NCBI RefSeq assembly: GCF_000949295.1
Contig: NZ_JXYS01000069.1
Location: forward strand, 1-36,518
Origin: Acidithrix ferrooxidans
Lineage (GTDB): Bacteria > Actinomycetota > Acidimicrobiia > Acidimicrobiales > Acidimicrobiaceae
Direction of reading: 5' to 3'
DNA length: 36,518 bases
Part shown: positions 1,938 through 22,217 of the stretch, one piece after another
How the letters are laid out: every line of letters starts with the position of its first letter
How positions within the stretch are numbered: the first letter of the stretch is position 1
The notes under the pieces: generated by a model
The model's input: only the letters and a program-made list of their open reading frames with translations
Told to the model about the DNA's origin: nothing
Database searches by the model: none
Program-made: the position numbers and the translations under genes

Positions 1938-2091
1938 TTGACAGTACTCCCACTCTCTTTCCCATTATGTTGCAATCTTACACCATATCTATAAGTTGAG
2001 GTAGCAGCTATATTACTACCTGTATTGTTAAATATGTCGGCTAAGGCTTTGCCGACCTTGTACCCACAATAATAATAGGAGTATATAGCAA

Positions 2092-2496: not shown

Positions 2497-2680
2497 TTTC
2501 AAGTCCTGGCATTTTAAAATCAATAGATCTCAGCAGCGTCAATCATGTGCCGAATAGGTAACAAGAGTATCTCATAGGTATCGGTTAGGACTACCAAATC
2601 TCTTATGCGTTTCCAGTACTGAAGTCTTTGTGGCGCTCATGCAGTCACTCTGCTGCCCACTAACAAGTCGCAAATCGCAA

Positions 2681-3589: not shown

Positions 3590-3909
3590 AAATCTTGTTC
3601 AAGAATATCACATGCGCACTGACTGAAATAGCCCAACGCGCACCGTAACTTGCCCACATTGAGTTTAGTTAGACGATTACCATATTGATAGTCTTTGCAG
3701 ATCAGGAAAACCGCCCTAAAACAGGTAAGTACTTGGTACCACTGTTGCTTGGATTGTTGAAACTCCTGTATGATCTTTGTGCAGCTACTCGGACTATTGG
3801 TGGCCGATGGGTCGTCAAACGTCATTCCGAGGGTGTTGGGGGACTACACGCCCGTTCATGGACCAAGATTATCAATCATGAGCTGGGTTTTTAAGAGGCT
3901 GGCCTTATT
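3590..3909. other. Intergenic spacer without a convincing gene
   Basis: This lies between the end of the KAP NTPase gene and the start of the HEPN-like gene, both on the minus strand. Short open frames exist on both strands, the longest on minus at 3463-3825, but it overlaps the HEPN-like gene and shows no recognisable protein character. The spacer probably holds the promoter of the HEPN-like gene. No clear terminator was found. Confidence 0.5.
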
Positions 3910-6900
3910 TCAGCTCTCGAAATTGGGCTGTATGTTGTTGTCTACCTCTTTAGCAGAATCTCCACCTAGCAATTTCAGGAGGTCCGTCAACGGCACTGGC
4001 GTCGCATCCCCCTCTGCATCCACCCTTTCGATAGATTTACGTCGAAGTACATCGAATGCAGCTCCACGGTTGTCTCGGTTCAGCGTGTCACCGTGCTTTT
4101 GAGCGACTCCGACAAACCATTTGAGGGCCTCCCAACGGTCACCTGCCACAAGCCGTTCAACGACATTCGGAAGTTTCTCGTGAATACGAAATAAACGCTG
4201 CCCAGACAAGAAAGCACCGTACACTTCAAAGAACTTGTCCGAGATCTCTGCGCCTTCCTTGCCTTCCAAGTTTGCACACAAGTGACTTGCCAACACACCC
4301 TGTAAGTCCTTGTCTAAAAGGCTCACCACTTTCAGGAACTCTTCAGACGACGGCGTCCATCCTATCTGGCCCGCGATCAACAGATTCGCATGTGACCGGA
4401 TAGCATTGTCCAGGGTTCCGCCAAGAACTGGAGGCTTAGACAAAGAGCTAACGATCAACCCCAGTTGAACGAACGGTCCTCCAGCCAACACACTCAACGA
4501 ACTCTCCCAATCAGCCTGCGAAGCCTTGCTGAGTATGTGATTTGCCCATCTAGATATGCCTGGCTGAGCCTTTGAACAACCCGGTTCGCCAAAGGCGAAC
4601 AGGACAGCCTCATGGGCAAGCTCGGGATTCTGGGAATTGGTTGTGACTGCAACTCGGTTTTTCGGCTCTTTTAATATCTCACCCAGTAAACTCCGAAATC
4701 CTTCCTCTCCTAACGCACGCCTTAGTACGTCGAAGGATTCAGCAAACTCGGTCGCTGTCACAACAAGATTGGAATCAACACGAAGTGCGCGAATCTGGTA
4801 GCTCACCCATGGCTCGTTCCCAACTCCGGCACTCAACTGCCTCATAAGAAGTGCCCATGCTTCAGATGAGTGCTCGATAAGCCATCGACTCTGAGCATCA
4901 GCGATCTTCGTGTCAGTTGTCGGATTCGACAATATCTCTCTTAGCTTTAATATCCCTGCTGCAGAACTACGGGAGACCTGAGGTTCAGTCGTACTCAGTT
5001 GAACACTCAGAAGGAGCATGGACGTCGAAGCCGCTGCGATTTCCCAATCTTTAGTTACGGCAACAGCGAACTGGTGTGTACGACTTCCATCGCTGGCGAG
5101 CTGCTGTAAAATAGATTGACCCTGATCAGATCGAACCATATCAATAGCACTACAGACACCTTGAAGCTGAACACCATCTGTCATTTCGCTTGCTCTAAGA
5201 AAGTCGCAACATCCTGTCAGCACTACTTCAGGATCAAATCGGTCAGGACGAGCCATCAAGACTTCAAGTGCTTGTGCCGCTGGCTGAGGATTGGGAGCCG
5301 AAGTTCCGGCAATGACCATTTGGTTGACTTCAGCTGGAGTTGCTTTTGGCTGAATTATCTCCCAAGCTATTTTATTATCGGTTTTGGAGCGCAGATAAGC
5401 CAACGCTGGCACAAACTGGTTGTCAGGCACATCTAGTCGAACCCGCAAATTTGAAAAAGATTCTGGAGTAAGTGAATCAACCAGTCCTACTAGGCCATCA
5501 AGTGCTGAGTTGGCCGTCCCTTGTGCGTCTCCTTTCAAAGGCTCGATTGCTTCTAAGAGTGCTGATCTGACACTATCTTCTAGCACAAGACCGGTAACTG
5601 CACCGATTCCAATTCCAGATTCTGTGTCTGCTAACCGCCAGGACTTTACGAGAGAGACCGCCTTAAGTAGACAATCGTCGATCCAATCGCCTGCGACATC
5701 CCTAGTGAGAAGACCAGCCTTGCTCAGAGATGCTACAGCGCGTGACAACTCCACAGCTCCGTCCTGAGCCCAACCAGATAGGTCAAGAGCGTCAAGAGCT
5801 TCCAAGAAGCCATAGCGATTGGACAAGCTTGTGAGTTCATCCGTGTTATCCGTCTTCAAGGCCACATCGAGTGAACGTCCAAGCAGCATTTGATTGGCAA
5901 TTGCAGCCTCGGTCCCGAAATGAATAGCTATGAGGTTCTCTCGCACAGAATTACTCAATAGATATGCAAGTGAGCCGTGAGGGATAGCTCCATCCTTCGT
6001 CAACTCGCCGATGAGCGGAACACTGTCACGCTGAAGAAGACTAAAATACGCGACATCAATTAGCGGAACGTCGCTCCGCTGTCGAAGAATAGCTCCGATC
6101 GAGTTCACGTACTGCTTAAGTTGACGAGGGGTCGGCTCTTCTTGTGCTACTCGTCCCGCTGGCGAAGCAGCGGGATAAAGCGCACGAAGACGCACAACGT
6201 TACGATGTTCCAAAGGTGATCGATCTGGTAAGGCCTCGTTCAACAATTCAGTAAGATAGCGTCGCCAATCGGTTAAAACTATCGGAGGCGTCAAAAATCG
6301 AACTGCAAAGAGCTTTGCTAAAAAGTCATCCGCTACACCCGAGTTCGAAATTGCAGCAACCTTCGTGATAGCTTCCTCTGCCGGATCTCGTGGCTGCAAA
6401 TCCCATAGGTGATCCAGACCTTTCTTGTCGTAGGGAATCAGAGTCCATACTCGGTCACTCCACTCGTCGTCGGCTGTCCGCGCCGTAGAACCAGTGAAGG
6501 TTTGCATCGTTGCAAATATGGAGCGTGCGTCGTTCTCATCAACTCGATCGAGATTATCTAGCACCAATACGCAGCGTCGGCCGCCTTTTAGGGATGCCTT
6601 AAGAATTTTCCGAAAAAAGTGTTCAAACTCCACTGAAGTTGGTTCACCGTGCTCTATCGAATCCGTGGTAGTTTCAACCTCTTGATCCTTACGGAAGAAA
6701 TTAAAGGCTTTCGTATCCTCGCAGTGCTCGAAATAATGCAATACTCCGAGAATGATCCAAAATCCAAGTATTACTAGCAGCGGTAGCGCTGCTAGTAATA
6801 AACCTATAACGATTATAATTCGGTGATAGTGAACAAACCGATTATCGAATGCCGCTACACCCAGAGGAACAAGCAGCAAAGCTATCGATGCTAACAACCC

Positions 6901-7410
6901 TTCTAGAGTGAGATGCGGAGTTGCCGTCACGGTGCTCGTTATGCGCTTGCCCGTGAAGCGCTTCCGGAACCCCTTAGCCTCTTTTGAATCCAACCATTCC
7001 CACTTGACGAGGTATCTTAAAAGACTTTCGAGAAACGTACGTCTCAATGGGTCACCCTGGTGAGCCCACGCATCGAATACAGCAACTCGAATCTCGGCAC
7101 TGATTGTAGACGTATCATCTTTTGATTGATCTTCAAGCTTATGCTTGAGAAGAGTAACAATTGTGGATTTACCTGATCCCCAGGTACCTTCTAGTCCGAT
7201 GACCCGACCACCGTGTTCATGGGTGATGAGCGCAGCAATTGCAGCAGCTACCGTGGAATGCGCGTGGCTACTAAAAAGATCTTCTTCTGAGGGAAGGTCC
7301 GAAACCAGATTCACCGTCTTCACCGATGGCTTGCTACTGTCGAACTTCACGATCTGATTTCTCCGTTCAGAGAATTGGTCCACCTTTGTACGTTGTGTCC
7401 CACTCTCCAT
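3910..7410 (-). CDS. KAP-family P-loop NTPase with membrane insertion
   Basis: 1166-residue STAND/KAP-type ATPase. The Walker A motif GTWGSGKST is at about residues 75-83, in the context VIGLEG typical of KAP proteins. Two strongly hydrophobic segments (about 168-188 and 197-226) follow, the membrane insertion seen in many KAP NTPases. Walker B with the KAP signature, VLVLDNLDRVD, is at about 281-291. The remaining 850 residues are helical and contain no further motif that I recognise; such a long C-terminus may act as a sensor or effector platform. The family is known from phage-defence and plasmid contexts, where the ATPase domain is thought to organise membrane-associated signalling complexes; a defence role here is inference. 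The ATG at 7410 has no obvious ribosome site, and an IS3 element begins only about 10-20 bases upstream, so the native promoter has probably been displaced. Confidence 0.85.
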   Translation of the reverse strand: MESGTQRTKVDQFSERRNQIVKFDSSKPSVKTVNLVSDLPSEEDLFSSHAHSTVAAAIAALITHEHGGRVIGLEGTWGSGKSTIVTLLKHKLEDQSKDDTSTISAEIRVAVFDAWAHQGDPLRRTFLESLLRYLVKWEWLDSKEAKGFRKRFTGKRITSTVTATPHLTLEGLLASIALLLVPLGVAAFDNRFVHYHRIIIVIGLLLAALPLLVILGFWIILGVLHYFEHCEDTKAFNFFRKDQEVETTTDSIEHGEPTSVEFEHFFRKILKASLKGGRRCVLVLDNLDRVDENDARSIFATMQTFTGSTARTADDEWSDRVWTLIPYDKKGLDHLWDLQPRDPAEEAITKVAAISNSGVADDFLAKLFAVRFLTPPIVLTDWRRYLTELLNEALPDRSPLEHRNVVRLRALYPAASPAGRVAQEEPTPRQLKQYVNSIGAILRQRSDVPLIDVAYFSLLQRDSVPLIGELTKDGAIPHGSLAYLLSNSVRENLIAIHFGTEAAIANQMLLGRSLDVALKTDNTDELTSLSNRYGFLEALDALDLSGWAQDGAVELSRAVASLSKAGLLTRDVAGDWIDDCLLKAVSLVKSWRLADTESGIGIGAVTGLVLEDSVRSALLEAIEPLKGDAQGTANSALDGLVGLVDSLTPESFSNLRVRLDVPDNQFVPALAYLRSKTDNKIAWEIIQPKATPAEVNQMVIAGTSAPNPQPAAQALEVLMARPDRFDPEVVLTGCCDFLRASEMTDGVQLQGVCSAIDMVRSDQGQSILQQLASDGSRTHQFAVAVTKDWEIAAASTSMLLLSVQLSTTEPQVSRSSAAGILKLREILSNPTTDTKIADAQSRWLIEHSSEAWALLMRQLSAGVGNEPWVSYQIRALRVDSNLVVTATEFAESFDVLRRALGEEGFRSLLGEILKEPKNRVAVTTNSQNPELAHEAVLFAFGEPGCSKAQPGISRWANHILSKASQADWESSLSVLAGGPFVQLGLIVSSLSKPPVLGGTLDNAIRSHANLLIAGQIGWTPSSEEFLKVVSLLDKDLQGVLASHLCANLEGKEGAEISDKFFEVYGAFLSGQRLFRIHEKLPNVVERLVAGDRWEALKWFVGVAQKHGDTLNRDNRGAAFDVLRRKSIERVDAEGDATPVPLTDLLKLLGGDSAKEVDNNIQPNFES

Positions 7411-7483
7411 ATAATAAACACCAAGTCCATTCTAGATAGACTTTAAAAGATATAAACTAGTAATAACTTGGAGGTTAAATTAT

Positions 7484-7741
7484 ATGGCTAAAGGTATAAT
7501 TGTTGATTTAAAAATTAAGTCAGAGATAATAACTAAAATACGTGATGAAGGTATGACAGTAACCGAAGCATCAACTAAATATGGTGTAGGCAGAACTGCT
7601 ATATACACTTGGTTACGTGATGGAGTAGTTAATACTAGTACTAGCTTAATACTAGAGAATAATCGTCTTAAGAAGGAGAATGAGCAACTATACAATCTTC
7701 TAGGCAGAGCCACTGTAGAGATGAAACGACTAAAAAAATAG
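7484..7741 (+). CDS. IS3-family transposase OrfA
   Basis: 85-residue DNA-binding half of an IS3 transposase. An N-terminal helix-turn-helix is seen at about residues 22-46 (MTVTEASTKYGVGRTAIYTW), followed by a leucine-zipper-like coiled coil (LILENNRLKKENEQLYNLL). A good ribosome site (TTGGAGG) sits about 10 bases before the ATG at 7484. The gene ends in a run of seven A residues directly before its TAG stop, the expected slippage site for making the OrfAB fusion. Length is slightly short for OrfA (usually 90-110). Confidence 0.88.
   Translation: MAKGIIVDLKIKSEIITKIRDEGMTVTEASTKYGVGRTAIYTWLRDGVVNTSTSLILENNRLKKENEQLYNLLGRATVEMKRLKK
7732..7738 (+). promoter_or_regulatory. Programmed -1 frameshift site (A7) between orfA and orfB
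   Basis: Seven consecutive A residues precede the orfA stop codon TAG. Slipping back one base changes the frame from AAA-AAA-TAG to AAA-AAA-ATA-GCC, which continues into the catalytic domain. This is the classical arrangement for IS3 elements. Confidence 0.75.
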
Positions 7742-8595
7742 CCGTCCTGGAAGTAGTCGAACCAGGATGGCGAACTCACTTTTCTCGAGTACTAAAAATA
7801 GCCCGTTCTAATCTATATACAAAACCAGTAAAACAATCTTTTAATGATCAACTTGCTATAACTGAACTTAAGACTGTTAGTGATATTAATCCCTATTACG
7901 GAGTAACGAGGCTAGCTATTGAGCTAGGTTGGAGTGAGAAGAAAACTAGACGTATACGTAACTTAGCAGGAGTAGTCGCAGCCAAAAGAACTAAGAGACA
8001 TAGTAAATCATCTATTAAGGCTGAAGTTAAAGCTCCAAATAATGCTCTTAAATCCTATATAGATTTTAATAACCCTAATCGACCACAGGATGGACAAAAT
8101 TATTCCAGGATGACTGAATCTGGAGCTTGGGTACAGGATTTCACGCATATCTATTTTATGGGAATGTGGGTATATGTAGCTACTGTTTTAGATATTAAAA
8201 CTAGAAGAATAGTCGGTTGGAGTATTGGTCTTCGACATGACACCGAACTAGTGCATAGAGCAATCCTAGATGCCTTCAGTAAGTATCCACCGCCTACTAT
8301 CCTGCATAGTGATCAGGGTAGTGAATATCTGAGTTACCGTTTACAAGATTTATGTCAGAAGATGGAGATTATATTATCCTGCTCCGATAAAGGTAGTCCT
8401 TGGCAGAATGGTTTTAAAGAAAGATTTTATAGTACCCTAAAAGATGAACTAGGACCTGTTAAAAGATTTAAAGATATTGCAGAACTTAATGAGGGTATTG
8501 CCTTAACTATTTACTATTACAACCATAAAAGAATTCATACAGCTTTAAAGATGAGTCCAGCTGCTTATGCTGCTACATTACAAAACATTAATTAG
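7732..8595 (+). CDS. IS3-family transposase OrfB (integrase catalytic domain), -1 frame
   Basis: Catalytic half of the transposase. The frame is open from the A7 slippery run at 7732-7738 to the stop at 8593-8595, about 287 codons. It has no plausible start codon near its beginning; the first ATG is at 8110, inside the domain. Expression therefore most likely needs -1 ribosomal frameshifting from orfA. The early part contains the IS3 HTH_21-like region (DINPYYGVTRLAIELG). The integrase core carries the DDE residues: D in WVQDFTHIYF, D in LHSDQGSEY, and E in NGFKERFYSTLKDEL. The C-terminus has YYYNHKRIHTAL, typical of the family. No internal stop or frameshift was found apart from the programmed one. 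Confidence 0.87.
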   Translation, partial: KKIAVLEVVEPGWRTHFSRVLKIARSNLYTKPVKQSFNDQLAITELKTVSDINPYYGVTRLAIELGWSEKKTRRIRNLAGVVAAKRTKRHSKSSIKAEVKAPNNALKSYIDFNNPNRPQDGQNYSRMTESGAWVQDFTHIYFMGMWVYVATVLDIKTRRIVGWSIGLRHDTELVHRAILDAFSKYPPPTILHSDQGSEYLSYRLQDLCQKMEIILSCSDKGSPWQNGFKERFYSTLKDELGPVKRFKDIAELNEGIALTIYYYNHKRIHTALKMSPAAYAATLQNIN

Positions 8596-8632
8596 AGAAC
8601 GAACAAGGTGTCTAGAATTAGGGGAGGTTGAC

Positions 8633-8890
8633 ATTGCTTCATATTAAACTAAATTATGATCTAAGACTTGCGGAGGAGCAAGCATGAGCATGATCCCACA
8701 GTGACGAATTGACCGCTTACGGGACAAGTCTTTGGGTGGTTCATCATGCTGATCAGTTGACATTGACGAATGTAGCCGGGACAAATCGACTTGACAATCT
8801 AACCTTCGTTCACACATCACACCACGTCACTCTCCCGCAAACCACTAGGGGCTTTTGTATTATCAATGGCAAGAATGCTCTTGTACACAG
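8633..8890. other. Non-coding stretch between IS3 element and methyltransferase gene
   Basis: No believable gene on either strand. It contains GTTGACATTG twice (about 8627-8636 and 8756-8765) and inverted CATGATC/GATCA-like sequences near 8690 and 8745. These could be remains of an older insertion or part of a terminator for the methyltransferase operon, which ends at 8891 on the minus strand. Confidence 0.35.
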
Positions 8891-11800
8891 TTATTTCATA
8901 TTTTTGATTACAGCAATTTCCCCAGGAAGAAGATTATAAAGCTCATAGACAAGGTTATCAATTTCTATTTCAAGATTCTCCAACGAACCTTTGCCAGCAT
9001 AGATGTCATCAACCTTGTCTGCAATCTGCTTTTGTATGGCAGGATTAGTGACGATTATTGGGATCGCGAGTAGCGGTTCTTTATCTATTTGATAGTTATT
9101 GCCCTGCATCTTGCCTTTATTCTTTAGCCAAAATGTCACTAATTTTGAATTCAGCAAGCCAGTTAGATATTTCAGATTAATGCCTTCAGTTTTTATGATG
9201 TAGAAAGCAGCAGATACGTAACAATCGAAATCTGTAAAAGTGAATACTGGTCGAGGTGTACTTTTCCTCAGCGCCATAATTTTTTCTCCAGTAAAAAATC
9301 TCGGCTCTCTTGCACGATGCAAACCATAAGGGTGATTTGCGGATGTGATTACTTCTCGAAATTGGTCTAAGTGGTTTTTTAGCGCCGGATAGGGATCCAT
9401 GCTCCTGACGTTTTTGTAGTTCGAACCGGTGTAAATTATCCACTCCTCATTCGTCGGGAGCGCGCGATATCGTCCCAACTGTTTAGTCGTGTAGTAGGGT
9501 CTAATCAACGATTCTTCCTCAGGAGTTAGGTTTAACGTTGCCTTTTCCTTTTGGCTGAGTACGAATATCCCATCTCCAACTTTATGCGAACCACCAAGTT
9601 TGCTCGCTGCTTTCTTATTTACGTAGTCAAAGTGTGGATGGATACCATTGGCAACTTCATTTTCGGTTAACTTAATATCGCCCCGACTAATAATTCTTCT
9701 AAGAAGTTTCTCGCTCTCGTTATCTGAGAATGTGAGTAGCGAGTTGATGCGTTCAGAGAAATCAATAGTCGGCTCCAGATAGGCTGTATTAGCGCTTGCA
9801 GCTTTAGCCAGAAGATCAAGCATGTCTCGACCCACTGGTTTATCGGTGTAAATCTTCCGGTAGTCGAATACGTAGCGTGCTTCGTTAGTCTTTTTGAACA
9901 TCATCACCATGGTTTGTATCGATGATGATTCAAATACAAAATAGCTCCCGAAATCTAGCATTTGTAGAATTGTGGCTTCTTGCAATATCTTGTTTCTAAA
10001 TTTTGAGGCTCCTGCGTTTGTGGTCCAGTTGTTAGTTGCTATATAACACAGTATGCCAGCAGGTTTTAATATATCGAGGCCAAGTGCACCAAACAAATAC
10101 CACACATCCATCTTGCCCTGATAACACTCTGAGTCTCTAAGGTTGTCGAATCTTGTTCGATCGTCATTTTCTTTGTAGTAAGGCGGATTTCCAATGACAA
10201 TATCAAAGCCATCAGTAACACCGAACATCCATTCAGGATCAAACCAGTCTGTAGCATGGTGGCCGAATGGGTCCCATGTAGAGACTTGTCTTGTTAAATC
10301 TGCCAAATCGTGACTGCGTTGAGAAATTATTCCTTGCAACATCAAATTCTGACGTTGTGAGAACTGTAATTTCAGACTGCCTCTTTCTGAGTCATGACTG
10401 CTGAAATACTCTTTGCGGAGTTGTTTAAGTTCATTGATGCCATCCGTGTCCTCGAATAATCCAGTTTGGCCAGTGATACCTTTTTTGCCGCCTCCCAGCT
10501 TTATTAGACTGTTTGCTGTCACAAATTTAAAATCCAGATTAGGCAGTGGTTCAATGCCCCGGTTTATTGCACCATCTTCTACGGATTGGTCAACAATAAG
10601 TGTGAGAAAACAGCGCAGTCTAGATATTTCCGTAGCAATTGGTTGAATGTCAACGCCGTAGATGCTTTCACGAATCACACCTAGTTTGCGAATATAATTA
10701 AAATTCTTGTTACGAAATTCTTGTTCAAGATGGTTTCTAAGCTCAGGACTAGCCCCGGCGATTTGTTTTTGTAGCCATTCTTTGGAGTCCGGATCAACTT
10801 GCTGAAGGATAAACACGATCTTCTGCAAAATACCTATAGGGAAAGCCCCGGATCCGCAGGCTGGGTCTAGAATTCTTACCTCACCAAGAGCCCTAATAAT
10901 CTCTTGTTTTTCGGTACCCGCAAAGGCGTGCTCGCTGTCATCGAGTACGTCATAGCTGACTAGAGCTGCAATTTTATTATCTGAAACCTTTGTAACGTTT
11001 TTGAGGTATTCTTTCAAGCTCTGGTCTACCATATATTCCACAATCTCACGAGGGGTGTAGAAACTTCCCGTGCCCCTACGCACTGTTTCGCCAGTTTCGG
11101 GATTGATTCTTGCAAGTAGATTTTCAAATATGCGTCCCAGCATCTCAGGATCTATTGAGAGGTCTATGTCGTAGCTAGTGTTCTCGTCAACAGTAAAGTT
11201 ATAAAGCTCGAGCAGATCAAACAATTTCCTGAGCCAAGTATCAGGAACCTCGACAAGGCCCGGGACTGAAAGTTGCAGGGCTTTATCAAATTTGTAATAG
11301 TCATCAGGATCCGGACTAAATAGACCTCCATTGAGGTACGGGATCGACGCATAATAATCACGTTGGAATTTGTCTTCTCGATTCTTAAGGTGCTTGTTAA
11401 GCACCTCGAAGAAGAGGGACGTCAAGGTTGCGTGATAATAGTTGTTCTCGCTAGCAGCGTTACGAGATAAAATATTTACTGGTACTAATGGCGTACCTGA
11501 GTCGCTTCGCTTTTCTCGTAAGAACCAACAGAAAATAATGCGGCCGATTAGCCGGACGGCAAACTCATGACTAGCTTCGCCATGATCGGGATATTTTAAA
11601 ACACCTGGCGTTTGGTCACTACCAACCAATTCGTCGTATAGCTTGGCGACCTCTTTATAGAATTCGTTGTTAACTACCTCAACAGCAAACCGTTTTGATA
11701 AGTCATCGAAATCTGTAACTTGACCCTTTGAAATAAGTTGTTTGTTGGGTGTCTTCAACTTGCTCCCTGGGCCCAATAAGTATGAATGCCGTTTGGGGCT

Positions 11801-12157
11801 GGAAAACGTAGTAACAACTTTCCCGTTATCAATTGTGGGTTGAGCTGTCATGAGTGAAAGACGCCATTGATTGGTGTCATCAGAATAAAAAGCCACCAGA
11901 CATCTATAAGATGCTGTAAGCTTCATAAGTTTGAAGCCGTCACTAGCTATGGCAGCTCGCTTATCAAGTGAACCTGATACTTTAACCTCAAAAATTTGCA
12001 AATCAAGTTTTGGTGAAGAACCAAGCGATAATACCTCAGAAAAGTGTGATGCTAACTCCGTAACAGTTCTCATATCATGACCCACGGATGGTAATAAGCT
12101 GTCAACAAGCTCAAGGAAGGCTTGCCGATTATAAGGTCGACCAAGATCGAAACTCAT
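8891..12157 (-). CDS. Eco57I-type N6-adenine DNA methyltransferase of a restriction-like operon
   Basis: 1088-residue class gamma-like adenine methyltransferase. Motif I, the SAM-binding DPACGSGAFPIG, is at about residues 431-442, and motif IV, IGNPPY, at about 655-660. It is preceded by the GSFYTPREIVEYMV segment typical of this family. The C-terminus (about 870-1080) looks like a TaqI/Eco57I-type target-recognition region, with QIDKEPLLAIPI near 1023-1034. The N-terminal domain (about 50-105, IFEVKVSGSLDKR to WRLSLMT, then LIGRIIFCWFLREK near 203-216) occurs in large type IIG/ISP-like proteins. I see no certain nuclease motif; FEVKV at 55-59 weakly recalls the ExK part of a PD-(D/E)xK site. 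Its ATG overlaps the stop of the upstream helicase by four bases, so the two are almost certainly cotranscribed and coupled. It likely marks host DNA while the helicase partner attacks unmarked DNA. Confidence 0.88.
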   Translation of the reverse strand: MSFDLGRPYNRQAFLELVDSLLPSVGHDMRTVTELASHFSEVLSLGSSPKLDLQIFEVKVSGSLDKRAAIASDGFKLMKLTASYRCLVAFYSDDTNQWRLSLMTAQPTIDNGKVVTTFSSPKRHSYLLGPGSKLKTPNKQLISKGQVTDFDDLSKRFAVEVVNNEFYKEVAKLYDELVGSDQTPGVLKYPDHGEASHEFAVRLIGRIIFCWFLREKRSDSGTPLVPVNILSRNAASENNYYHATLTSLFFEVLNKHLKNREDKFQRDYYASIPYLNGGLFSPDPDDYYKFDKALQLSVPGLVEVPDTWLRKLFDLLELYNFTVDENTSYDIDLSIDPEMLGRIFENLLARINPETGETVRRGTGSFYTPREIVEYMVDQSLKEYLKNVTKVSDNKIAALVSYDVLDDSEHAFAGTEKQEIIRALGEVRILDPACGSGAFPIGILQKIVFILQQVDPDSKEWLQKQIAGASPELRNHLEQEFRNKNFNYIRKLGVIRESIYGVDIQPIATEISRLRCFLTLIVDQSVEDGAINRGIEPLPNLDFKFVTANSLIKLGGGKKGITGQTGLFEDTDGINELKQLRKEYFSSHDSERGSLKLQFSQRQNLMLQGIISQRSHDLADLTRQVSTWDPFGHHATDWFDPEWMFGVTDGFDIVIGNPPYYKENDDRTRFDNLRDSECYQGKMDVWYLFGALGLDILKPAGILCYIATNNWTTNAGASKFRNKILQEATILQMLDFGSYFVFESSSIQTMVMMFKKTNEARYVFDYRKIYTDKPVGRDMLDLLAKAASANTAYLEPTIDFSERINSLLTFSDNESEKLLRRIISRGDIKLTENEVANGIHPHFDYVNKKAASKLGGSHKVGDGIFVLSQKEKATLNLTPEEESLIRPYYTTKQLGRYRALPTNEEWIIYTGSNYKNVRSMDPYPALKNHLDQFREVITSANHPYGLHRAREPRFFTGEKIMALRKSTPRPVFTFTDFDCYVSAAFYIIKTEGINLKYLTGLLNSKLVTFWLKNKGKMQGNNYQIDKEPLLAIPIIVTNPAIQKQIADKVDDIYAGKGSLENLEIEIDNLVYELYNLLPGEIAVIKNMK

Positions 12158-15100
12158 GCTTCAAGCTCCTCAGCAAGTAGTAATAGTTCCTTTCCTTCAT
12201 TAGCTCGGTGAGCACGATCTATAACGTTGCGAATAAATTGAACCGGTATTAGTTCTTGCAGACGTGAATAGGTATCTTCGATATTTCGCATGTCAATTTG
12301 TACAATATCTTTCAAGGTACCTTCACTAACATCGTCGAATTCCTTGATGACCTTTATCAAATCCGAACAATAGCTTTCAGACCTTGGTAGGGCATCCTTA
12401 ATCGCCATAAGATTCTTGATGGCATCTTGGCGCCGTCCTTTTATGGCCGGGAGTGGATGTTTAGCGAACAGCTTTTCTTTAGCTTTATTGAATATTGGTG
12501 CAAACTTATCCTGCACTTCGAAGCTCTGCTCATCCACTGTTGCTGCAAAGAGAGGGACAGCTCTTTCTGCACTTACTACTACAGGCTCAATATCACCATC
12601 GGCAATAGTAAATATTGATTGTTCGCCTTTCTTACCAAAAACCACCACAACGGAATCACTTCTATTCTTTCTTAGGATTCTTGATCGACGAGGAATCTGA
12701 AGTGCTTTAGCTATTAATAGGTCGTCCTTAAGGGCTTTAAAGTAGACGTCTCTATGTATAGCGTCCCAAGAGAGAGTTTCATTTTGAGCGTCAGCATTCT
12801 GATATTCATCTTTAAAATAGCTTTGAATTTGCTCGTCATTCGTAAGCGTCTTTGTGTCACTGCCTACAATCGAATTAATCAGCTTTATTTTGAGGGTTGA
12901 TATTTGCTTTACACGAGTCTCAGCTTCACCAATAGCAGTTGGAAAAGAATTGAATACATAGAGATGATCAAAAACCTTTTTGTTTATACGATTGATACGG
13001 CCGACACGCTGAATGACACGAGTGGGGTTGTATGGGATATCGTAATTAATTACTACGCCTGCCCTATGAAGGTTGTAACCCTCGCTCAAAGCATCAGTAG
13101 CAACTAAAATGTCGTAATTATTTGATTGCTGAGCTTTTGGGACTGAGGCATCAAAGTTCTCTTTAATTATCTTCCGTGTAGTTGCACTGGCATCAGCGGC
13201 TGTGTAGTGGTACATGCGCTGAATCCCTCTTTTCCCAAGAGCTGCATAGAGGTAGTTCACTGTATCGGCATAACCTGAGAAAATAATTATTTTTCTATCG
13301 GGGTTTTCGGATAATAGCTTCGAAATTCTCTGAGCAAGATCATCAGTCTTAGGGTCTTCGTTGCTAATCCTGGGATCATTAAACCATTTGTCCCGGATAT
13401 TGATCAATAACGCGGTGTCCTTCCGAACATCATCAATAAATTCAGGATCAATTAACTCCTTCGGTACAGAAATCAAACCTTTTTGCTCTTTTAGTTGATC
13501 CAGTTGTTCGTCTAATGCGTTGTGATCCTCACCATCATCCTGGTCGTAATCGGCAAAATCGTCAGGATCAGGAATTTGACCTTTTTTCATAATCGGGACA
13601 CTGCCAAGCTCTTCCCACCAGCGTTCAATTAATTTGTTGGTTTGGATCATCTTGTTTAACGTGCTTTCAAAAGCGTATTTCGAGCTTTCAAAGCGCATGA
13701 CTAAGAGCTTGCGCATAAAGTCTGCAAGGTTTACTTGGGCTGTTTTTAGGTCGGTTTCATCGAGATCTGCGCCAAACTTATCCAGAAACGCTTGCCGATC
13801 ATTTATATAGACAGCAGGTTTATAGCGAGCACCGATAAAGCCGTTGCCACCATCAGTTGCACTAATCGTGTTCAGTGTTTCTAAGTAAAGATCCAATAAT
13901 GCGCCGAGATCGTATTCCATTAACTCAGGACCAACTACATCGGCAAAATCTATCTTCTGACGTTTTAGATCTTCTCTATATCTTGTGATTTGTTTTAGAT
14001 CAAGCCGTGACCGTCTGATGACAACGCTTTCAATAAGTCTTCTTTGTTCTTCAGCGATTTCTTCTGCCTCTTGATCAATCTGGCTTGGTTTCAAACCTCT
14101 GGTCATATCCTTTCGTAGTTTTTTGTAGCGATCAATGAGTTCACGAAATCTCAGACTTAGGTTGTCAACCGACCTAATCGTTGCCTGTCCAGGGGTTTGA
14201 AAGAGCTTTACAAGTGCGAAAACATCTTTAGGTGCATTGTTAAAAGGTGTAGCTGTAAGAACGAGTATCTTATTATCCGGGTGACTGCGACAAACTTGAT
14301 GCAACAACTTGTAGTCGTTTGTATCTTCATTGCGATAGCGATGGGCTTCGTCGAGAATAATAAGAATTGGGTCACTAGTATCTTTATATCGTTCATAAAC
14401 CTGGCTGATATTGCCTGAGCTGTATACACGAGAGCCTCGAATTCCGAACTGCTCTTTGTAATCTTCCCACTGGGGCATTAAGTGCGGGGGTGCAACGATA
14501 ACTGTGTTCATGTCTAGATTTCTGGCGATGCAAGAGGCGATGATGCTTTTTCCGAGGCCTACTACGTCCGCAATTATGACTCCGTCGAATTTAGCCAGTC
14601 TTTCAATCCCCATGCGTACCGCATCGAGTTGGTACTCTAGATCCAGAAACTGGCCATTCGTAATTTTGCCTGGTGAAAGAATGCCTTCTTTCTCTTCGTG
14701 GCTAAAAACTTCATGTAATACTCGAATATACATTTCATACGATGATGGAGTTTGATACTTCCAAACCTTGGATTTCAACTCTTTGAAGAATTCCTCTTTG
14801 TTGTGGGAATCTGCAATTGCAATAGATTTGGAAGGACTCCATAAATCCGTAAATCGCTGCTCGTACTCTTGAAACTTTGATTTATCGCGGTGAGAGTCGT
14901 TGAGTTCACCTTGGCCAACAAGACCTCTGTAAGTCATGTTGCTTGAACCGCTAAAGACTGTACCTGGAAAGTCTCCGTCGTGTGAACTCTCTTTGTTGTT
15001 GTAAACGAGATAGAACTTACCGTGTTCATCAGTGATTGTCTTTCGTATTTCTAATGAACCATCTTGGAGCTTTTTAGCAAAGATATCAAAGGCTTTTTCT

Positions 15101-15474
15101 GCTTTAGGATCATCAAACGTATCGCTATCGTTAATAAAACCAACTAATGCGTCTGCATAATTCTGTTTCAGTCCAAGTGCGGATCGAGTCGGCTGTCTTG
15201 GCTGCCAACGCGAAAGGTCCTCATCTGCTTCTTTAGAGAATTGAACGATATCTGGAATACAAGATGGGTCAACTTCCATTCCAACGAGTATTCGAACATG
15301 CTTATCTTCAAGTTCTGCAGCCAACGCTTCGAAACCTGAAAAATAAAAATAGCCAACAGAAACGTCTACCCGATCAGCATTGCTCAGAGCATTTATCAAC
15401 GCTTTTTGCATCGTTTGGGTTTTATTATCGATTAAAGTCATAGCAAAGCGGATTTCCGGGTCATTTAAAATCAT
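12154..15474 (-). CDS. SNF2-type helicase with N-terminal phospholipase D-like nuclease domain
   Basis: 1106-residue fusion. Residues about 20-215 form a PLD-like domain: H151-x-K153 in DEHGKFYLVYNN and GSSNMTYRG at about 176-184 make the HxK...GSxN signature. An SF2 helicase core follows: motif I DVVGLGKSI (303-311), motif II ILDEAHRYRN (373-382), motif III LTATPFNN (406-413), and motif VI QRVGRINRI (822-830). SNF2/HepA-like translocases with a PLD domain occur in defence islands. Here the gene is the first of a two-gene operon with an Eco57I-type methyltransferase. The arrangement recalls DISARM (separate SNF2, PLD and methyltransferase proteins) and type ISP enzymes (fused), but it matches neither because no drmA/drmB-like or extra nuclease gene is nearby. 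The ATG at 15474 lacks a strong ribosome site; the ATG 11 codons later is an alternative. Confidence 0.88.
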   Translation of the reverse strand: MILNDPEIRFAMTLIDNKTQTMQKALINALSNADRVDVSVGYFYFSGFEALAAELEDKHVRILVGMEVDPSCIPDIVQFSKEADEDLSRWQPRQPTRSALGLKQNYADALVGFINDSDTFDDPKAEKAFDIFAKKLQDGSLEIRKTITDEHGKFYLVYNNKESSHDGDFPGTVFSGSSNMTYRGLVGQGELNDSHRDKSKFQEYEQRFTDLWSPSKSIAIADSHNKEEFFKELKSKVWKYQTPSSYEMYIRVLHEVFSHEEKEGILSPGKITNGQFLDLEYQLDAVRMGIERLAKFDGVIIADVVGLGKSIIASCIARNLDMNTVIVAPPHLMPQWEDYKEQFGIRGSRVYSSGNISQVYERYKDTSDPILIILDEAHRYRNEDTNDYKLLHQVCRSHPDNKILVLTATPFNNAPKDVFALVKLFQTPGQATIRSVDNLSLRFRELIDRYKKLRKDMTRGLKPSQIDQEAEEIAEEQRRLIESVVIRRSRLDLKQITRYREDLKRQKIDFADVVGPELMEYDLGALLDLYLETLNTISATDGGNGFIGARYKPAVYINDRQAFLDKFGADLDETDLKTAQVNLADFMRKLLVMRFESSKYAFESTLNKMIQTNKLIERWWEELGSVPIMKKGQIPDPDDFADYDQDDGEDHNALDEQLDQLKEQKGLISVPKELIDPEFIDDVRKDTALLINIRDKWFNDPRISNEDPKTDDLAQRISKLLSENPDRKIIIFSGYADTVNYLYAALGKRGIQRMYHYTAADASATTRKIIKENFDASVPKAQQSNNYDILVATDALSEGYNLHRAGVVINYDIPYNPTRVIQRVGRINRINKKVFDHLYVFNSFPTAIGEAETRVKQISTLKIKLINSIVGSDTKTLTNDEQIQSYFKDEYQNADAQNETLSWDAIHRDVYFKALKDDLLIAKALQIPRRSRILRKNRSDSVVVVFGKKGEQSIFTIADGDIEPVVVSAERAVPLFAATVDEQSFEVQDKFAPIFNKAKEKLFAKHPLPAIKGRRQDAIKNLMAIKDALPRSESYCSDLIKVIKEFDDVSEGTLKDIVQIDMRNIEDTYSRLQELIPVQFIRNVIDRAHRANEGKELLLLAEELEA

Positions 15475-15856: not shown

Positions 15857-16753
15857 TCATGATTCTTCGCAGTTGAGTTCTAAATGTGTCGTTGCTCGAT
15901 TGATCATCTCAAGCGCTTCTTGACCGTATACTGAGCGCTCCGCAACCAATGTATGTAGCCTCACGAAAGTTGATATGCTGTCAGCGTTAGAAATGAATTG
16001 TTCTATAACTACCGTCTCGGTTGAAACAAACCTGCCGTCATAGATCGTAAACCCTGTAAGTGCACCTGGGATATTTCCACGAACAGTAGGAAGAATACCA
16101 ATTCGTACATTATCCCATTTTATGTGCATAGAGAGCCACCTCAGCTGTTCAACTTGAACCTCTCTAGATGAGACAACGGTATAAAGCACTGATTCTGCTA
16201 TCACGAAGTGAAAAGAGCGTTGACGTTGCGTTAGCACCTCTTGCCGTTCCCTACGTCCACTTATTGCTGCTTCTATGTCATTCTCTGGTACTTCGAACCA
16301 ACGAAGTAATTCTCGTGTATAGCCCGGCAGCTGTAGCAGGCCCGGTATCACAGTTGGCTCGTATTGGTCAAATACTCGAATATACTTTTCGTAGTCCCGA
16401 ATCTGCCGTTGCCGATTTTCAACTCCGTGCGCTATAACAGCACGCATGGACAAAGGTGGAAGCAGTGTTAATTCAAACTGTCGGACAACAATTGTTTCTT
16501 CATCAACCGTTAGTTCAAGGGTCTTAGCAATTTGGTCAAGATCTTGCCTGGTGAGTTTGGCGTGGCCATTCTCTATTTTGGAGACGTGGGATTGGCTGAA
16601 GCCCACGCGCTCGCCAAGCTGTTTACTTGTCAAACTACGAGACACGCGTAGACTTCGCAAAGTTTTCCCAAGCGCGATCTTGGCACGCTGAGTATTAGGA
16701 GGAATATGAAAAGTTAAGCGGCCTCCAGCCACAATTAGGCCTGATGTGTACAA
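15857..16753 (-). CDS. XRE-family regulator with DUF5753-type C-terminal domain
   Basis: 298-residue actinobacterial regulator. The XRE helix-turn-helix lies at about residues 27-85, with SKQLGERVGFSQSHVSKIEN as its core. The C-terminal two thirds match the DUF5753 pattern: YEPTVIPGLLQLPGYTRELL near 130-150, then RRERQEVLTQRQ. This architecture is widespread in actinobacteria and usually sits beside small partner genes of the DUF397 or DUF6879 type; the biochemical role of the C-terminal domain is not established. Its start lies inside the 3' end of the upstream DUF6879-like gene (19-base overlap), so the two are probably translated together. It might act as a regulator with a partner, or as an antitoxin-like module; that is inference. 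Confidence 0.85.
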   Translation of the reverse strand: MYTSGLIVAGGRLTFHIPPNTQRAKIALGKTLRSLRVSRSLTSKQLGERVGFSQSHVSKIENGHAKLTRQDLDQIAKTLELTVDEETIVVRQFELTLLPPLSMRAVIAHGVENRQRQIRDYEKYIRVFDQYEPTVIPGLLQLPGYTRELLRWFEVPENDIEAAISGRRERQEVLTQRQRSFHFVIAESVLYTVVSSREVQVEQLRWLSMHIKWDNVRIGILPTVRGNIPGALTGFTIYDGRFVSTETVVIEQFISNADSISTFVRLHTLVAERSVYGQEALEMINRATTHLELNCEES

Positions 16754-17235
16754 GCATAGACGTCACGCAAATTGGGGGAATTCTCGAAAACTCTAAGCCA
16801 CTGTTCAACTACTTTGATCTCGCTTGCCGAAGCAGTCGAAACCTCAGCTCCTTGAAATGAACCATCACTAAGGTAGTTCATCCACGCGATCCATTTACCA
16901 TCAAAGAACCAAAAGTCGGATTCATATGCACAATCGATTCGCGGTGCTACGCGGATTTTTTCCCCGACACGTAGTCCTGCTTCATATGCTTGTACTTCAA
17001 AACTCTCGTAATCGGTAAGCGATTCAGACAACAATCGTAGCCGATTCACTGTCTTTCCCTCAGCAAGAAAATCTTCGACAAGCGCCACCCACGGCGCGTT
17101 AAATCCAGCAGGAATTGTTCCCTGTTTGAGGAATGAAGCAAACGCCAAATCCTCACCCGGCACACGATACGTAGGCAAACCTTCAAGACGAAAGGCGCTC
17201 GACTGAAAATTTACAAACAAAGCCTCTAGATCCAT
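16735..17235 (-). CDS. DUF6879-like protein, partner of the XRE/DUF5753 regulator
   Basis: About 166 residues from the ATG at 17235, chosen because GGAG lies eight bases before it; an ATG six codons upstream (17253) is also open. The sequence has the pattern of the DUF6879 group: a central RLRLLSESLTDYESFEVQAY, then VAPRI, FWFFDGKWIAWMNY and a C-terminal helical stretch VVEQWLRVFENS. No catalytic residues are known for this family. It overlaps the regulator gene by 19 bases and follows two small genes in the same direction. The combination is typical of actinobacterial regulatory cassettes, so it is likely a protein partner of the regulator. Confidence 0.72.
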   Translation of the reverse strand: MDLEALFVNFQSSAFRLEGLPTYRVPGEDLAFASFLKQGTIPAGFNAPWVALVEDFLAEGKTVNRLRLLSESLTDYESFEVQAYEAGLRVGEKIRVAPRIDCAYESDFWFFDGKWIAWMNYLSDGSFQGAEVSTASASEIKVVEQWLRVFENSPNLRDVYACTHQA

Positions 17236-17288
17236 ATATATTGCTCCACTCATACTTTGAACGTCTACAGTCCGATTGTCAAGACGGT

Positions 17289-19809: not shown

Positions 19810-20064
19810 ATGAGTAGAACATTCCACAATAATGACGGTCATATCAGAGTCCGAGGTGTCAGAAAAGATCCACCTGATCTGCGACGTTTGGCGAGGGCGT
19901 TGATTGCCCTGGCTGAAGCTCAAGCCGAAACTGAGGCCGAGGCTGAAGCCCAAGCCGGGATTCAAGCCAAGGCAGAAATCCGGGCAAAGCGTAATAAAGC
20001 TATCCAGCCTGTCAAACCCCTCAAAGATGAAAACAACTCCGATAACCAAGGTGATGCGGCGTGA
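19810..20064 (+). CDS. Small conserved-type protein with Ala/Glu repeat helix, beside coupling protein
   Basis: 84 residues. The N-terminus, MSRTFHNNDGHIRVRGVRKD, followed by PPDLRRLARALIALAEAQAE, resembles short proteins found immediately before TraD-like genes in actinobacterial integrative elements; I know it from pattern only and no function is established. The middle is a low-complexity helix made of AE/EA and QA repeats (about residues 36-56). A perfect ribosome site (AAAAGGAGG) precedes the ATG. The stop overlaps the GTG start of the coupling-protein gene, indicating translational coupling. It may bind the coupling ATPase or DNA. Confidence 0.7.
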   Translation: MSRTFHNNDGHIRVRGVRKDPPDLRRLARALIALAEAQAETEAEAEAQAGIQAKAEIRAKRNKAIQPVKPLKDENNSDNQGDAA

Positions 20065-22217
20065 ACGCCGGTCCTGTTATCTGGTATCGACTGCGTTGGC
20101 CCAGAAATGTCTCAGCCCAGCAGGTTGAACAGGCTTTTCTGCTGCTCAGCGCTACAGCTGGAACCCCAGTTGTAATTGAAACAGTTGGCAGTGCTGACTT
20201 CGTGGAGCATCGTCTGGCACTGCCAAGAGACCGGGTCGGAAGCATCGTCCATCAGCTACGCGCTGGTCTGCCTGGACTGGCCGTTGAGACAATAGACCAC
20301 AATAACAGTGCATTCAATCGGGCGGTAGAACTGCGGTTATCGACCCGTCGTCGACCACTTGGTACCGACGATCCTGAAGTTGTCAGTACGGCACTGCTGA
20401 GCGCGCTATCTCACCTTGGTGCCCATGAGCGTCTGGTTCTGCAATGGGTACTTGGTCGTCAGCTGTCTTCAACTCCGGTTCCCAACAAGATCAATGCTTC
20501 TAGTGAATTCTGGCTATCCAACGTGGCCGATACCGTACTGGGTAAAGCACAATCAGCTGACAGCGAATTTCGCACTGCCCTGCGTTCCAAACAGGGCATT
20601 TCGGGCTGGCAAGTGGTCGGGCGAGTTGGCGTTATAGCCAAGAGTTACGCAAGGCAGCGTCAGTTGACTCGCCAAGTTCTCGGAGCACTGCGCACCTCTG
20701 AATCCCCCGGTGTCAGTTTCCGGGCTCGTTCGACCAGTCCTAAACGAATCACGGGTGTTCATGTTCCCTTATTCATTCCACTGCGGTTGAACGCTCTTGA
20801 GCTGGCCACGGTGTCCGGGTGGCCAATTGGCGCCACCAGTGATCTTCCGGTTGCCAAGGTTGGCAGCCGGATGCTGGCCCCAACATCTGCGATACCAAAG
20901 TCGGGACGCATTATTGGCGAAGCGACATTTCCAGGGAGGGAACGACCGCTGGCGGTCTCGGCAACTGACTCGCTGCGCCATCTTCACGTCCTTGGTCCAA
21001 CCGGATCCGGAAAATCTACATTGCTGTTAAATCTCGTTGTCCAGGATATGGCAGATGGCAGAGGCATCGCGGTGATCGAACCCAGAGGCGACCTGATAAA
21101 AGATATCTTGAGCCACGTCCCACCACACCGCGCTGGCGACGTGGTTTTGCTCGATCCAACCGATGACAAGCAACCAGTGGGGCTAAATCCCCTGTCTACT
21201 CATGGTCGTTCGCCTGAACTGGTGGCCGATCAACTGCTCGGCGTCTTTCACAACCTCTACGCCGCAAACTGGGGACCAAGGACCCAGGACATTTTGGGTA
21301 GTGCCTTATTAACCCTTGCCCGCAATCCCGGTATGACACTGGTGGCTTTGCCGTTGCTTCTAACCAATGCCGGTTTTCGCCGTCGAATGGTGGCCAACCT
21401 CGATGATCCGATAGGCCTGGAACCATTTTGGGCTTCCTACGAAAACTGGAGCGAAGCCGAGAGAACTACCGCCATCTCCCCGGTCATGAATAAGCTGCGT
21501 CCTTTCTTACTACGTCCTCAAATTAGGGCCATTATCGGGCAAGCTAAGCCCCGATTCGATGTCCGTGAATTATTCACCAAACGGAAAATCCTGCTTGTCA
21601 ATCTGGCCAAGGGAGAACTGGGACCAGAGACCGCGGCACTGCTTGGCAGTTTGGTTATCGCTCAGTTGTGGCAGGCTACCCTGAGCCGTTCGATGATTGC
21701 CCCAGAGAAGCGTCACCCGGTCTTTATATACGTCGATGAGTTTCAGGATTACCTGCGACTTCCAACTGATTTTGCCGATGCCCTGGCTCAAGCCCGGGGT
21801 TTGGGCGTCGGATTTGTCTTGGCCCATCAGTACATGCACCAACTGGATATACCAATGCGTTCAGCGGTAATGAACAACGCCCAGTCCCGCATCGCCTTTC
21901 GACTACCGAACGAAGATGCCAAGCTGATCGCCGCCGGTAGCAACTTAGAACCGGAGGATTTTCAGAGTCTTAACGCTTATCACTGCTACCTGCAACTGTT
22001 GGCCCGAAACTCGGTTCAGCCCTGGTGCAGCGCCCGGACCCTTTTGCCAGATAGTTCGACAAGCGATCCGGAGCTTATTCGCACTGCATCGCGTGATGCC
22101 TACGGCATTGACCGAAGTGTTGTCGAGGCCGCAATTCGTGAACTTGCCTATGGGCGAAAAACTGAGCCAACTAACGATCTTGGTCGTCGCCAGCGCACTA
22201 GTGGGGATAGCTTATGA
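20061..22217 (+). CDS. VirD4/TraD-like type IV coupling ATPase
   Basis: 718-residue DNA-pumping ATPase that would bring the element DNA to the conjugation machinery. Start is GTG at 20061, overlapping the previous stop (GTGA). The Walker A motif LGPTGSGKST is at about residues 311-320, followed by IAVIEPRGDLIKDIL near 336-350. Walker B FIYVDEFQDYL is at about 555-565, with the DEFQ typical of VirD4/TraG proteins. The C-terminal RIAFRLPNEDAKLIA stretch fits the TraM-recognition region of this group. No N-terminal membrane helices are apparent, so it probably works with the small membrane proteins upstream. No mating-channel genes (VirB4-like) or a classical relaxase appear in the window; transfer may use a reduced or double-stranded mechanism, or those genes lie elsewhere. 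Confidence 0.88.
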   Translation: MNAGPVIWYRLRWPRNVSAQQVEQAFLLLSATAGTPVVIETVGSADFVEHRLALPRDRVGSIVHQLRAGLPGLAVETIDHNNSAFNRAVELRLSTRRRPLGTDDPEVVSTALLSALSHLGAHERLVLQWVLGRQLSSTPVPNKINASSEFWLSNVADTVLGKAQSADSEFRTALRSKQGISGWQVVGRVGVIAKSYARQRQLTRQVLGALRTSESPGVSFRARSTSPKRITGVHVPLFIPLRLNALELATVSGWPIGATSDLPVAKVGSRMLAPTSAIPKSGRIIGEATFPGRERPLAVSATDSLRHLHVLGPTGSGKSTLLLNLVVQDMADGRGIAVIEPRGDLIKDILSHVPPHRAGDVVLLDPTDDKQPVGLNPLSTHGRSPELVADQLLGVFHNLYAANWGPRTQDILGSALLTLARNPGMTLVALPLLLTNAGFRRRMVANLDDPIGLEPFWASYENWSEAERTTAISPVMNKLRPFLLRPQIRAIIGQAKPRFDVRELFTKRKILLVNLAKGELGPETAALLGSLVIAQLWQATLSRSMIAPEKRHPVFIYVDEFQDYLRLPTDFADALAQARGLGVGFVLAHQYMHQLDIPMRSAVMNNAQSRIAFRLPNEDAKLIAAGSNLEPEDFQSLNAYHCYLQLLARNSVQPWCSARTLLPDSSTSDPELIRTASRDAYGIDRSVVEAAIRELAYGRKTEPTNDLGRRQRTSGDSL

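Follow-up and report, generated by a model that had tools for sequence, protein, structure and literature searches.

What kind of defence unit is formed by two genes that pair a PLD nuclease and an SNF2 motor with a large DNA methyltransferase (MTase) is the question raised by this locus of Acidithrix ferrooxidans. Within the window, the whole 36,518-nt stretch of DNA that was analysed, the first gene (12154 to 15474) codes for a predicted PLD nuclease-SNF2 helicase/translocase of 1106 residues, called the helicase below, and the second (8891 to 12157) for a predicted gamma-class N6-adenine DNA MTase of 1088 residues with a specificity domain. Both genes, and all features located below, lie on the minus strand. 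The ORF coordinates bear out the 4-nt ATGA start/stop overlap (12154 to 12157) seen in the original prediction, and a -4 nt overlap was also found in 5 of 81 relative loci. Pfam analyses placed PLDc_2, SNF2-rel_dom, Helicase_C and ResIII above cut-off on the helicase ORF, and Eco57I (E 5.2e-32), N6_Mtase and TaqI_C above cut-off on the MTase ORF. Together with the motif residues, these matches confirmed the PLD signature, complete SNF2 core and large adenine MTase that had been read from the sequence.

The PLD nuclease domain of the helicase spans residues 26 to 212 (14839 to 15399; PF13091, E 1.3e-9), with an HxK motif at H151-K153 (15016 to 15024) and a GSSN motif at residues 176 to 179 (14938 to 14949). 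The PLD motifs and the key helicase residues, whose loss in relatives would have spoken against the original prediction, are intact: H151, K153, G176-N179, E190 and N192 were each present in 86/86 aligned helicases. The two-lobe SNF2 motor occupies residues about 258 to 904 (12763 to 14703; predicted model, pLDDT 80), and this model superimposed on Chd1 (9gd1_W) with a VIA-align Z of 18.1 and an rmsd of 3.5 over 417 positions. Its Walker A motif, DVVGLGKS, lies at residues 303 to 310 (14545 to 14568). Conservation was again 86/86 for each of D303-K309 in Walker A, D375, E376 and H378 in the DExH motif, and Q822, R823, G825, R826 and R829 in motif VI, with slight variation elsewhere in the helicase motifs (A377, 81/86; E798 and N801, 84/86 each). 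The earlier remark that the locus has no separate endonuclease holds to the letter, but that role probably falls to the PLD domain.

Linkage of the two genes was assessed in 81 relative loci collected by helicase-only patterns, i.e., independently of the MTase. An MTase gene was found downstream of the helicase gene, on the same strand and within 2.2 kb, in 75 of them, at a spacing within 60 nt in 48 loci and with a gap of 270 to 2122 nt in 27. In the six loci lacking it, 0 to 1109 nt of contig extend beyond the helicase gene. In the flanks examined, no MTase gene lay before the helicase gene or in the opposite orientation, and any third gene family was shared by at most 12 of the 81 loci. The proposed survey of how often the pair occurs without other genes therefore yielded a constant two-gene order. 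The window neighbours were rejected as parts of the system: homologues of the KAP ATPase gene (3910 to 7410) and of the genes at 834, 2681, 15857 and 16735 were each found in the examined flanks of 0/81 loci, and a gene at L035:14888-15778 proved unrelated to the window gene at 15857 to 16753. The pair, in a distant form, is also found on an 11.8-kb Lactiplantibacillus plasmid, whose 8 annotated genes include no other restriction-type set but do include a RelE/ParE toxin gene.

Comparison of the divergence of the two proteins revealed that the helicase co-diverges with residues 1 to 660 of the MTase and that residues from 661 on are freely exchanged. The correlation with helicase divergence was 0.81 to 0.96 per block up to residue 660 and 0.05 to 0.10 past it, falling from 0.81 at residues 601 to 660 to 0.07 at residues 661 to 720. 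Over 55 rows, r was 0.97 for residues 1 to 655 and 0.11 for residues 700 to 1060, and helicase segments, used as a control, gave 0.96 to 0.98 against the whole helicase; the rows are mutually related, which inflates the r values, but not the contrast between the MTase halves. The drop coincides with catalytic motif IV, NPPY, at residues 657 to 660 (10178 to 10189; N657-P659 in 62/62 and Y660 in 60/62 aligned MTases). Upstream of it lies the SAM motif I, DPACGSGAF, at residues 431 to 439 (10841 to 10867; D431-A433 and G435-A438 in 62/62, F439 in 61/62), and downstream the exchangeable half, residues 661 to 1088 (8894 to 10177), with a TaqI_C-type target recognition domain (Pfam, residues 941 to 1034). 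The collapse follows directly after NPPY; exchange is confined to the specificity half, the remainder travelling with the helicase. Pairwise counts, in which the recognition half was measured over residues 700 to 1060, agree: among 410 pairs with backbone identity above 60%, 386 have a recognition half below 30% identity, as with L058 and L041 (99% and 22%). The recognition half exceeded the backbone by more than 10 points in 27/1485 pairs. For the window MTase, identity with three relatives (L033, L073 and L080) was 23 to 25% over residues 1 to 330, 36 to 42% over residues 331 to 760 and 47 to 51% over residues 781 to 1060.

Does the MTase cut DNA by itself? One alternative is a conventional type IIG/IIL enzyme able to cut alone, the PLD-SNF2 gene being a neighbour or helper. 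PADLOC assigned it to REase_MTase_IIG (E 2.4e-89), and a Lactococcus homologue is type IIG in REBASE, as reported in a passage of PMC6098607, and these assignments to a characterised subtype are, in part, an outcome that the original prediction had counted against itself. The helical connector (residues 131 to 332; 11162 to 11767) resembles that of MmeI (5hr4_J; VIA-align Z 9.4, rmsd 2.8 over 122). The N-terminal domain (residues 1 to 130; 11768 to 12157; predicted model, pLDDT 84) is weakly PD-(D/E)XK-like and aligned with DrdV residues 1 to 144 at Z 5.2, below the Z 8 caution line of VIA-align and outranked by an unrelated row, a sex pheromone precursor, at Z 5.5; a Foldseek search with this domain returned no match at E < 0.001. 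The window MTase has both nuclease-like residues (E57xK59), leaving a slight chance of residual nuclease activity, but they are not conserved in the family: E57 was present in 34/62 and K59 in 28/62 aligned MTases, and D52 opens the predicted strand that also carries E57. We therefore disfavoured the MTase as a self-sufficient nuclease and regard the PLD domain as the likely cutter. Given also the linkage and co-divergence of the helicase, an MTase that cuts alone is quite improbable. In a set of six plasmid relatives (L160-L165, from 267 matching records) examined for solitary type IIG relatives keeping the nuclease site, none was solitary, the helicase gene being nearby in all six.

We consider it likely that the pair is a two-gene ATP-dependent restriction-modification system, with the PLD-SNF2 protein cutting and the MTase recognising and methylating, and it is best read as resembling a type ISP enzyme divided over two genes and equipped with a PLD nuclease. 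This part of the original proposal, a restriction-like unit that would act in the manner of a split ISP enzyme, is supported. Complex formation, methylation, translocation, cutting and an anti-phage effect are the steps that we infer. The C-terminal recognition domain of the MTase would bind a specific sequence, and the MTase would methylate adenine in the host's copies of it. The PLD-SNF2 protein would dock on the conserved MTase backbone, residues 1 to 660, and pump unmethylated foreign double-stranded DNA through ATP hydrolysis, and the PLD domain would cut the pumped DNA. By analogy with BfiI and NgoAVII, cutting would probably be dimeric and proceed without a metal ion.

A BREX-like mode of action, in which self DNA is marked by methylation and, after sensing, the PLD-SNF2 protein blocks phage replication or degrades DNA without site-directed cleavage, would also fit free specificity exchange. 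The MTase has distant PglX-like similarity, and an excerpt of PMC12839542 describes Type-2 BR systems in which an HKD-SNF2 protein is paired with an N6-MTase. However, the PglX score, 68.6 bits, is far below the curated cut-off of 500, and the PLD motif is intact. DUF499 (PF04465) had no match in the window's own genome, which is 97.98% complete, and of the 50 pair-bearing genomes searched (50 of the 81 loci) 5 contain it, not necessarily beside the pair. DUF3780 (PF12635) likewise had none in the own genome in two profile scans, one of which matched no genome at all and the other 1/396 genomes. The helicase scored 125.5 bits against NF042964 (cut-off, 1100), for which a positive control (L136) reached 1179.3. 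Membership in BREX or BR was ruled out on these scores and missing genes, and a BREX-like block without site-directed cutting is unlikely.

The original prediction had also likened the pair to DISARM, with drmD, drmMI and drmC functions compressed into two genes, a comparison made as well in a paragraph of PMC6098607; the domain kinds are indeed the same. The proposed search against defence-system models nevertheless left DrmD, like PglX and the PLD-antiphage model, far under its cut-off: the helicase scored 141.5 bits against NCBIfam DrmD (NF038317; cut-off, 610), and the PADLOC models gave 118 bits for DrmD and 54.6 bits for DrmMI. With the same PADLOC models, a separate island of the same genome (C34, L120) reached 294 and 197 bits, and its helicase fits DpdE better (735). 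In a tree, the pair clade split at 100 from this DrmD/DpdE-like protein, a long-branched single row that was the chosen outgroup. As predicted, no drmA/drmB-like product was found among the ten nearest window ORFs scanned with Pfam (834 to 8595 and 15857 to 17253). MZB/DUF1998 occurred in 12/50 genomes, with no length-matching ORF listed at those loci as judged by eye, although locus ends could hide one. DISARM membership was rejected on these scores and on the lack of drmA/drmB-like genes among the ten ORFs scanned, and a reduced DISARM is extremely improbable.

A 2018 description of orf33-orf35 of Lactococcus lactis plasmid pLd8, in the same paragraph of PMC6098607, recorded this domain set with the DISARM comparison. 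Calling the system minimal and distinct was fair, except that its domain set had already been described. That paragraph is also the nearest description in the open literature searched, with subscription journals and REBASE outside the search, and a named two-gene system of this sort was not found there. The layout was known from dairy bacteria; what is new here is its wide distribution and the interchangeable target-reading part. The chances are even that the pair represents a distinct, unnamed ATP-dependent restriction-modification class, in which a PLD-SNF2 motor nuclease is co-inherited with a type IIL-derived MTase backbone with a decayed nuclease, and the specificity half is swapped at NPPY across bacteria and archaea. 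In PADLOC the MTase is classed as a type IIG enzyme on its own, and annotations of plasmids label its partner 'helicase-related protein' or 'SNF2-related protein', which makes this widespread two-gene system easy to overlook. From the abrupt break at a catalytic motif we predict that members could exchange their recognition halves and that the conserved half is where the motor docks. If shown, this would indicate a route from a fused nuclease to separate ATP-driven restriction.

The pair shares features with several known systems. Like pLd8, as described in PMC6098607, it combines a PLD-SNF2 protein with a type IIG-like MTase that has TaqI_C and no recognised nuclease domain, but pLd8 has a third listed ORF, orf35. 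In the plasmid pairs L161, L162 and L165 the helicase gene likewise precedes the MTase gene; they are distant relatives and differ in that the window MTase is 28 to 32% identical to theirs, with helicase profile matches of 330 to 371 bits, and in that their MTase N-terminus is unmatched, profile matches starting at 168 to 169. Type-2 BR systems also fuse an N-terminal PLD domain to an SNF2 motor and include an adenine-type MTase, but theirs is DUF1156, whereas that of the window is gamma/Eco57I, and the DUF499 and DUF3780 present there were not found here. CglI, NgoAVII and BceSIV have a PLD nuclease, an SF2 ATPase and an MTase. Excerpts of PMC4267653 report that CglI and NgoAVII are ATPase-dependent PLD nucleases that cut DNA, that mutation of the HxK histidine abolishes cutting, and that more than 95 homologues have a fused nuclease and ATPase. 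According to the same excerpts, recognition there lies in the nuclease's B3 domain and a distinct DEAD-family protein provides the ATPase, whereas in the window recognition lies in the MTase and the motor is of SNF2 type; in sequence profiles, no B3 family of Pfam matched the helicase up to E 1. Unlike type I systems, which have a separate HsdS with two recognition domains, the window system has its recognition domain fused to the MTase, and no hsdS product was found among the neighbouring window ORFs scanned with Pfam. Type IIL/IIG enzymes (MmeI and DrdV) likewise join the MTase backbone, helical connector and recognition domain in one chain; the window family differs in its unconserved N-terminal nuclease residues and its constant motor partner. 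Type ISP enzymes (LlaGI and LlaBIII) are single polypeptides with an Mrr-like PD-(D/E)XK nuclease, as an excerpt of PMC3874165 states. In place of that single chain, the window system has two genes and a PLD nuclease, yet it keeps the type ISP order of nuclease, motor, gamma MTase and recognition domain, with translocation predicted.

The two open reading frames expected to overlap by ATGA are present on the minus strand, with a 4-nt overlap and the helicase gene (12154-15474, 1106 aa) preceding the methyltransferase gene (8891-12157, 1088 aa), and each domain named in the original prediction is backed by Pfam. The HxK/GSxN and helicase residues, whose loss in relatives was to count against that prediction, proved constant in an alignment of 86 helicases (the window and loci L030-L115, omitting the fragment L069): PLD residues H151, K153, GSSN 176-179, E190 and N192 are invariant, and there is no variation in Walker A (303-309), D375, E376, H378 and the motif VI arginines. 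In 62 methyltransferases longer than 850 aa, NPP is invariant, as is motif I except for C434 and F439. The G+C content of the pair (41-43%) and of the adjoining IS-like remnant (37.5%) lies below the 45-55% of the majority of the window's other 1.5-kb blocks, which fits horizontal acquisition. The remnant, immediately downstream of the methyltransferase gene (7484-8595), consists of an 85-aa ORF, helix-turn-helix-like on visual inspection, followed by a 161-aa piece of an integrase core (Pfam rve), and we take it to be of the IS3 type.

Relatives were collected by one scan of genome contigs and one of viral contigs, with a two-row helicase alignment as the query. Since the peptide patterns came from the helicase alone, a methyltransferase neighbor was not built into the search. 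The resulting 81 loci, i.e., the best 80 of 137 genome relatives and one viral contig, include many MAG contigs and many Bacteroidales, which are non-independent rows. A methyltransferase gene lies downstream on the same strand in 75 of them according to a profile that is sensitive by construction, because it was built from the same locus set, and in 71 of 81 with the window's methyltransferase alone as the query. None was found upstream or on the opposite strand in the flanks examined of the 81 loci. The six loci devoid of the gene (L038, L062, L066, L069, L112 and L114) have 0 to 1109 nt of contig remaining past the helicase. The two genes are at most 60 nt apart in 48 loci (overlapping in 15) and separated by 270 to 2122 nt in 27, 16 of which carry an ORF of at least 120 aa in the gap. 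These 16 ORFs, all scanned, matched SLFN_AlbA_2 with HATPase_c_4 (seven), RhuM (four), NYN (three), Fic (one) and AbiEii (one); genes of this sort are commonly carried as passengers within type I operons. In L040, L047 and L111 the methyltransferase gene occupies two frames, representing a broken gene, an assembly error or a natural split. Across the two pair-bearing clades of the helicase tree there are 21 different phylum labels, including two archaeal ones.

How often the pair occurs without other genes was a question attached to the original prediction. Clustering of all 601 flanking ORFs of at least 100 aa from the 81 loci gave a commonest family present in 12 loci and a second family in 7; homologues of the window's own neighbor genes occurred in none. 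Thus, the pair, found in 75 of 81 loci, has no constant third gene. Some of 73 flanking genes, chosen out of 182 meeting a distance rule, match defense models, with PDC-S06 and mad3 (four each), REase_MTase_IIG (three), AbiEii and GajA (two each) among the matches listed, which cover 25 of 281 families. In the window, a 1166-aa KAP-family P-loop NTPase (3910-7410; E 3.9e-19, with a weak PADLOC match to PifA) is possibly a separate defense gene; no homologue was found in the flanks examined of the 81 loci. Adjoining HTH/DUF5753 and DUF6879 genes upstream of the pair in the same orientation (15857-17253) were not found near it in the 81 loci; the closest relative, L035, has a LexA-like gene upstream. 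A TrwB/TraG-like coupling protein (20061-22217) and a nearby tRNA-Ala gene (27825-27900) suggest an integrated conjugative or mobilizable element.

Pairwise identities among 55 loci with methyltransferases of at least 1000 aa revealed that helicase identity follows that of methyltransferase residues 1-655 (r = 0.97), in contrast to residues 700-1060 (r = 0.11). By 60-residue blocks, r stayed at 0.81-0.96 as far as residue 660 and was 0.05-0.10 for residues 661-1020, the break falling immediately past NPPY (657-660); control helicase blocks compared with the whole helicase gave 0.96-0.98. The methyltransferase backbone is more than 60% identical in 410 pairs, in 386 of which the recognition half, measured over residues 700-1060, is less than 30% identical; in L058 and L041 the values are 99% and 22%. 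The opposite case also occurs: L033 (Prevotella), L073 (Roizmanbacteria) and L080 share 47-51% identity with the window in the recognition half but only 23-42% in the other parts, and the recognition half exceeds the backbone by more than 10 points in 27 of 1485 pairs. Such a pattern is characteristic of an exchangeable specificity module, like that of HsdS, and points to residues 1-660 as the part that the helicase probably contacts. A parallel is offered by pJM1F (L161), a Lactococcus plasmid on which a related methyltransferase gene is followed, in inverted orientation, by an alternative recognition-domain gene; the neighboring gene carries the annotation master DNA invertase Mpi. The methyltransferase gene (5707-5728) and the alternative gene (7471-7492) are linked by a perfect inverted repeat of 22 bp, with two matches against none expected; this arrangement probably mediates specificity switching by inversion.

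In the predicted structure of the methyltransferase N-terminal 340 residues (pLDDT 84.4), residues 131-332 resemble the MmeI connector (Z 9.4, rmsd 2.8 over 122). The match of residues 1-151 to the DrdV N terminus (Z 5.2, rmsd 4.3 over 110) is below the tool's caution line and outranked by an unrelated row (Z 5.5); lower-ranked matches include some nuclease folds and many other folds. As E57 and K59 are poorly kept (34 and 28 of 62 rows), in contrast to the nearly constant R67, R99 and R123 (61, 62 and 62), a nuclease-derived domain repurposed for another role is plausible. The helicase model (pLDDT 80) resembles SNF2 remodelers, with Z scores reaching 18.2 across residues 258-904.

The pair is best read, with fairly good confidence, as a restriction-modification system with divided labor, in which the methyltransferase would read and mark the target, the SNF2 motor would move DNA and the PLD domain would cut it. 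That a PLD nuclease can rely on an ATPase of the SF2 class is shown by CglI and NgoAVII (PMC4267653). Cleavage may occur at a fixed distance or upon collision of two motors, the sequence being compatible with either.

The likeness to DISARM proposed in the original prediction was not supported, as scores for the DISARM models, like those for BREX, are far below cut-off. Type-2 BREX-related (BR-2) membership was also rejected, with an NF042964 score of 125.5 versus 1179 for the true member L136; true members (L136-L138) combine DUF499, DUF3780, a DUF1156 methyltransferase and a PLD helicase roughly 900 aa long. Neither DUF499 nor DUF3780 was found in the window's own genome, and DUF499 turned up in five of the 50 genomes with the pair that were checked (50 of the 81 loci, many being incomplete MAGs). 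In a 77-row helicase tree (quick search, SH-aLRT support only, the own genome's DrmD/DpdE-like protein chosen as outgroup), the window falls within a 19-member clade of pair helicases (100), sister to two Thermus/Meiothermus plasmid proteins, L031 and L032 (97), whose methyltransferase is upstream. The remaining 27 pair helicases branch next (99), and BR-2 and BR-1 (three rows each) lie outside, the deep order being unsure because of long branches. More distant PLD-SNF2 proteins with other partners, often with a methyltransferase-like gene first (L140-L159, L160 and L163), form a larger, unsorted superfamily. Elsewhere in the same genome (L120, C34:28000-46000), three consecutive genes (395-10418) encode a protein matching DruE models, an SNF2 helicase of DpdE/DrmD-like type and a DrmMI/IIG-like methyltransferase, an order that agrees with the ARMADA type I system (PMC12458937); Orf5/SspE-like, PDC-S73-like and RmrA-like genes follow.

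This kind of system is already known. The same domain content was described for orf33/orf34 (with orf35) of Lactococcus pLd8, where the methyltransferase is said to have no nuclease domain, the PLD domain is proposed as the cutter and the genes are compared with class I DISARM (PMC6098607); more than 95 homologues in which the PLD nuclease and the ATPase are fused are mentioned in PMC4267653. To these descriptions our analysis adds the breadth of the family, the constant linkage, its separateness from both BR and DISARM, and NPPY as the point of exchange.
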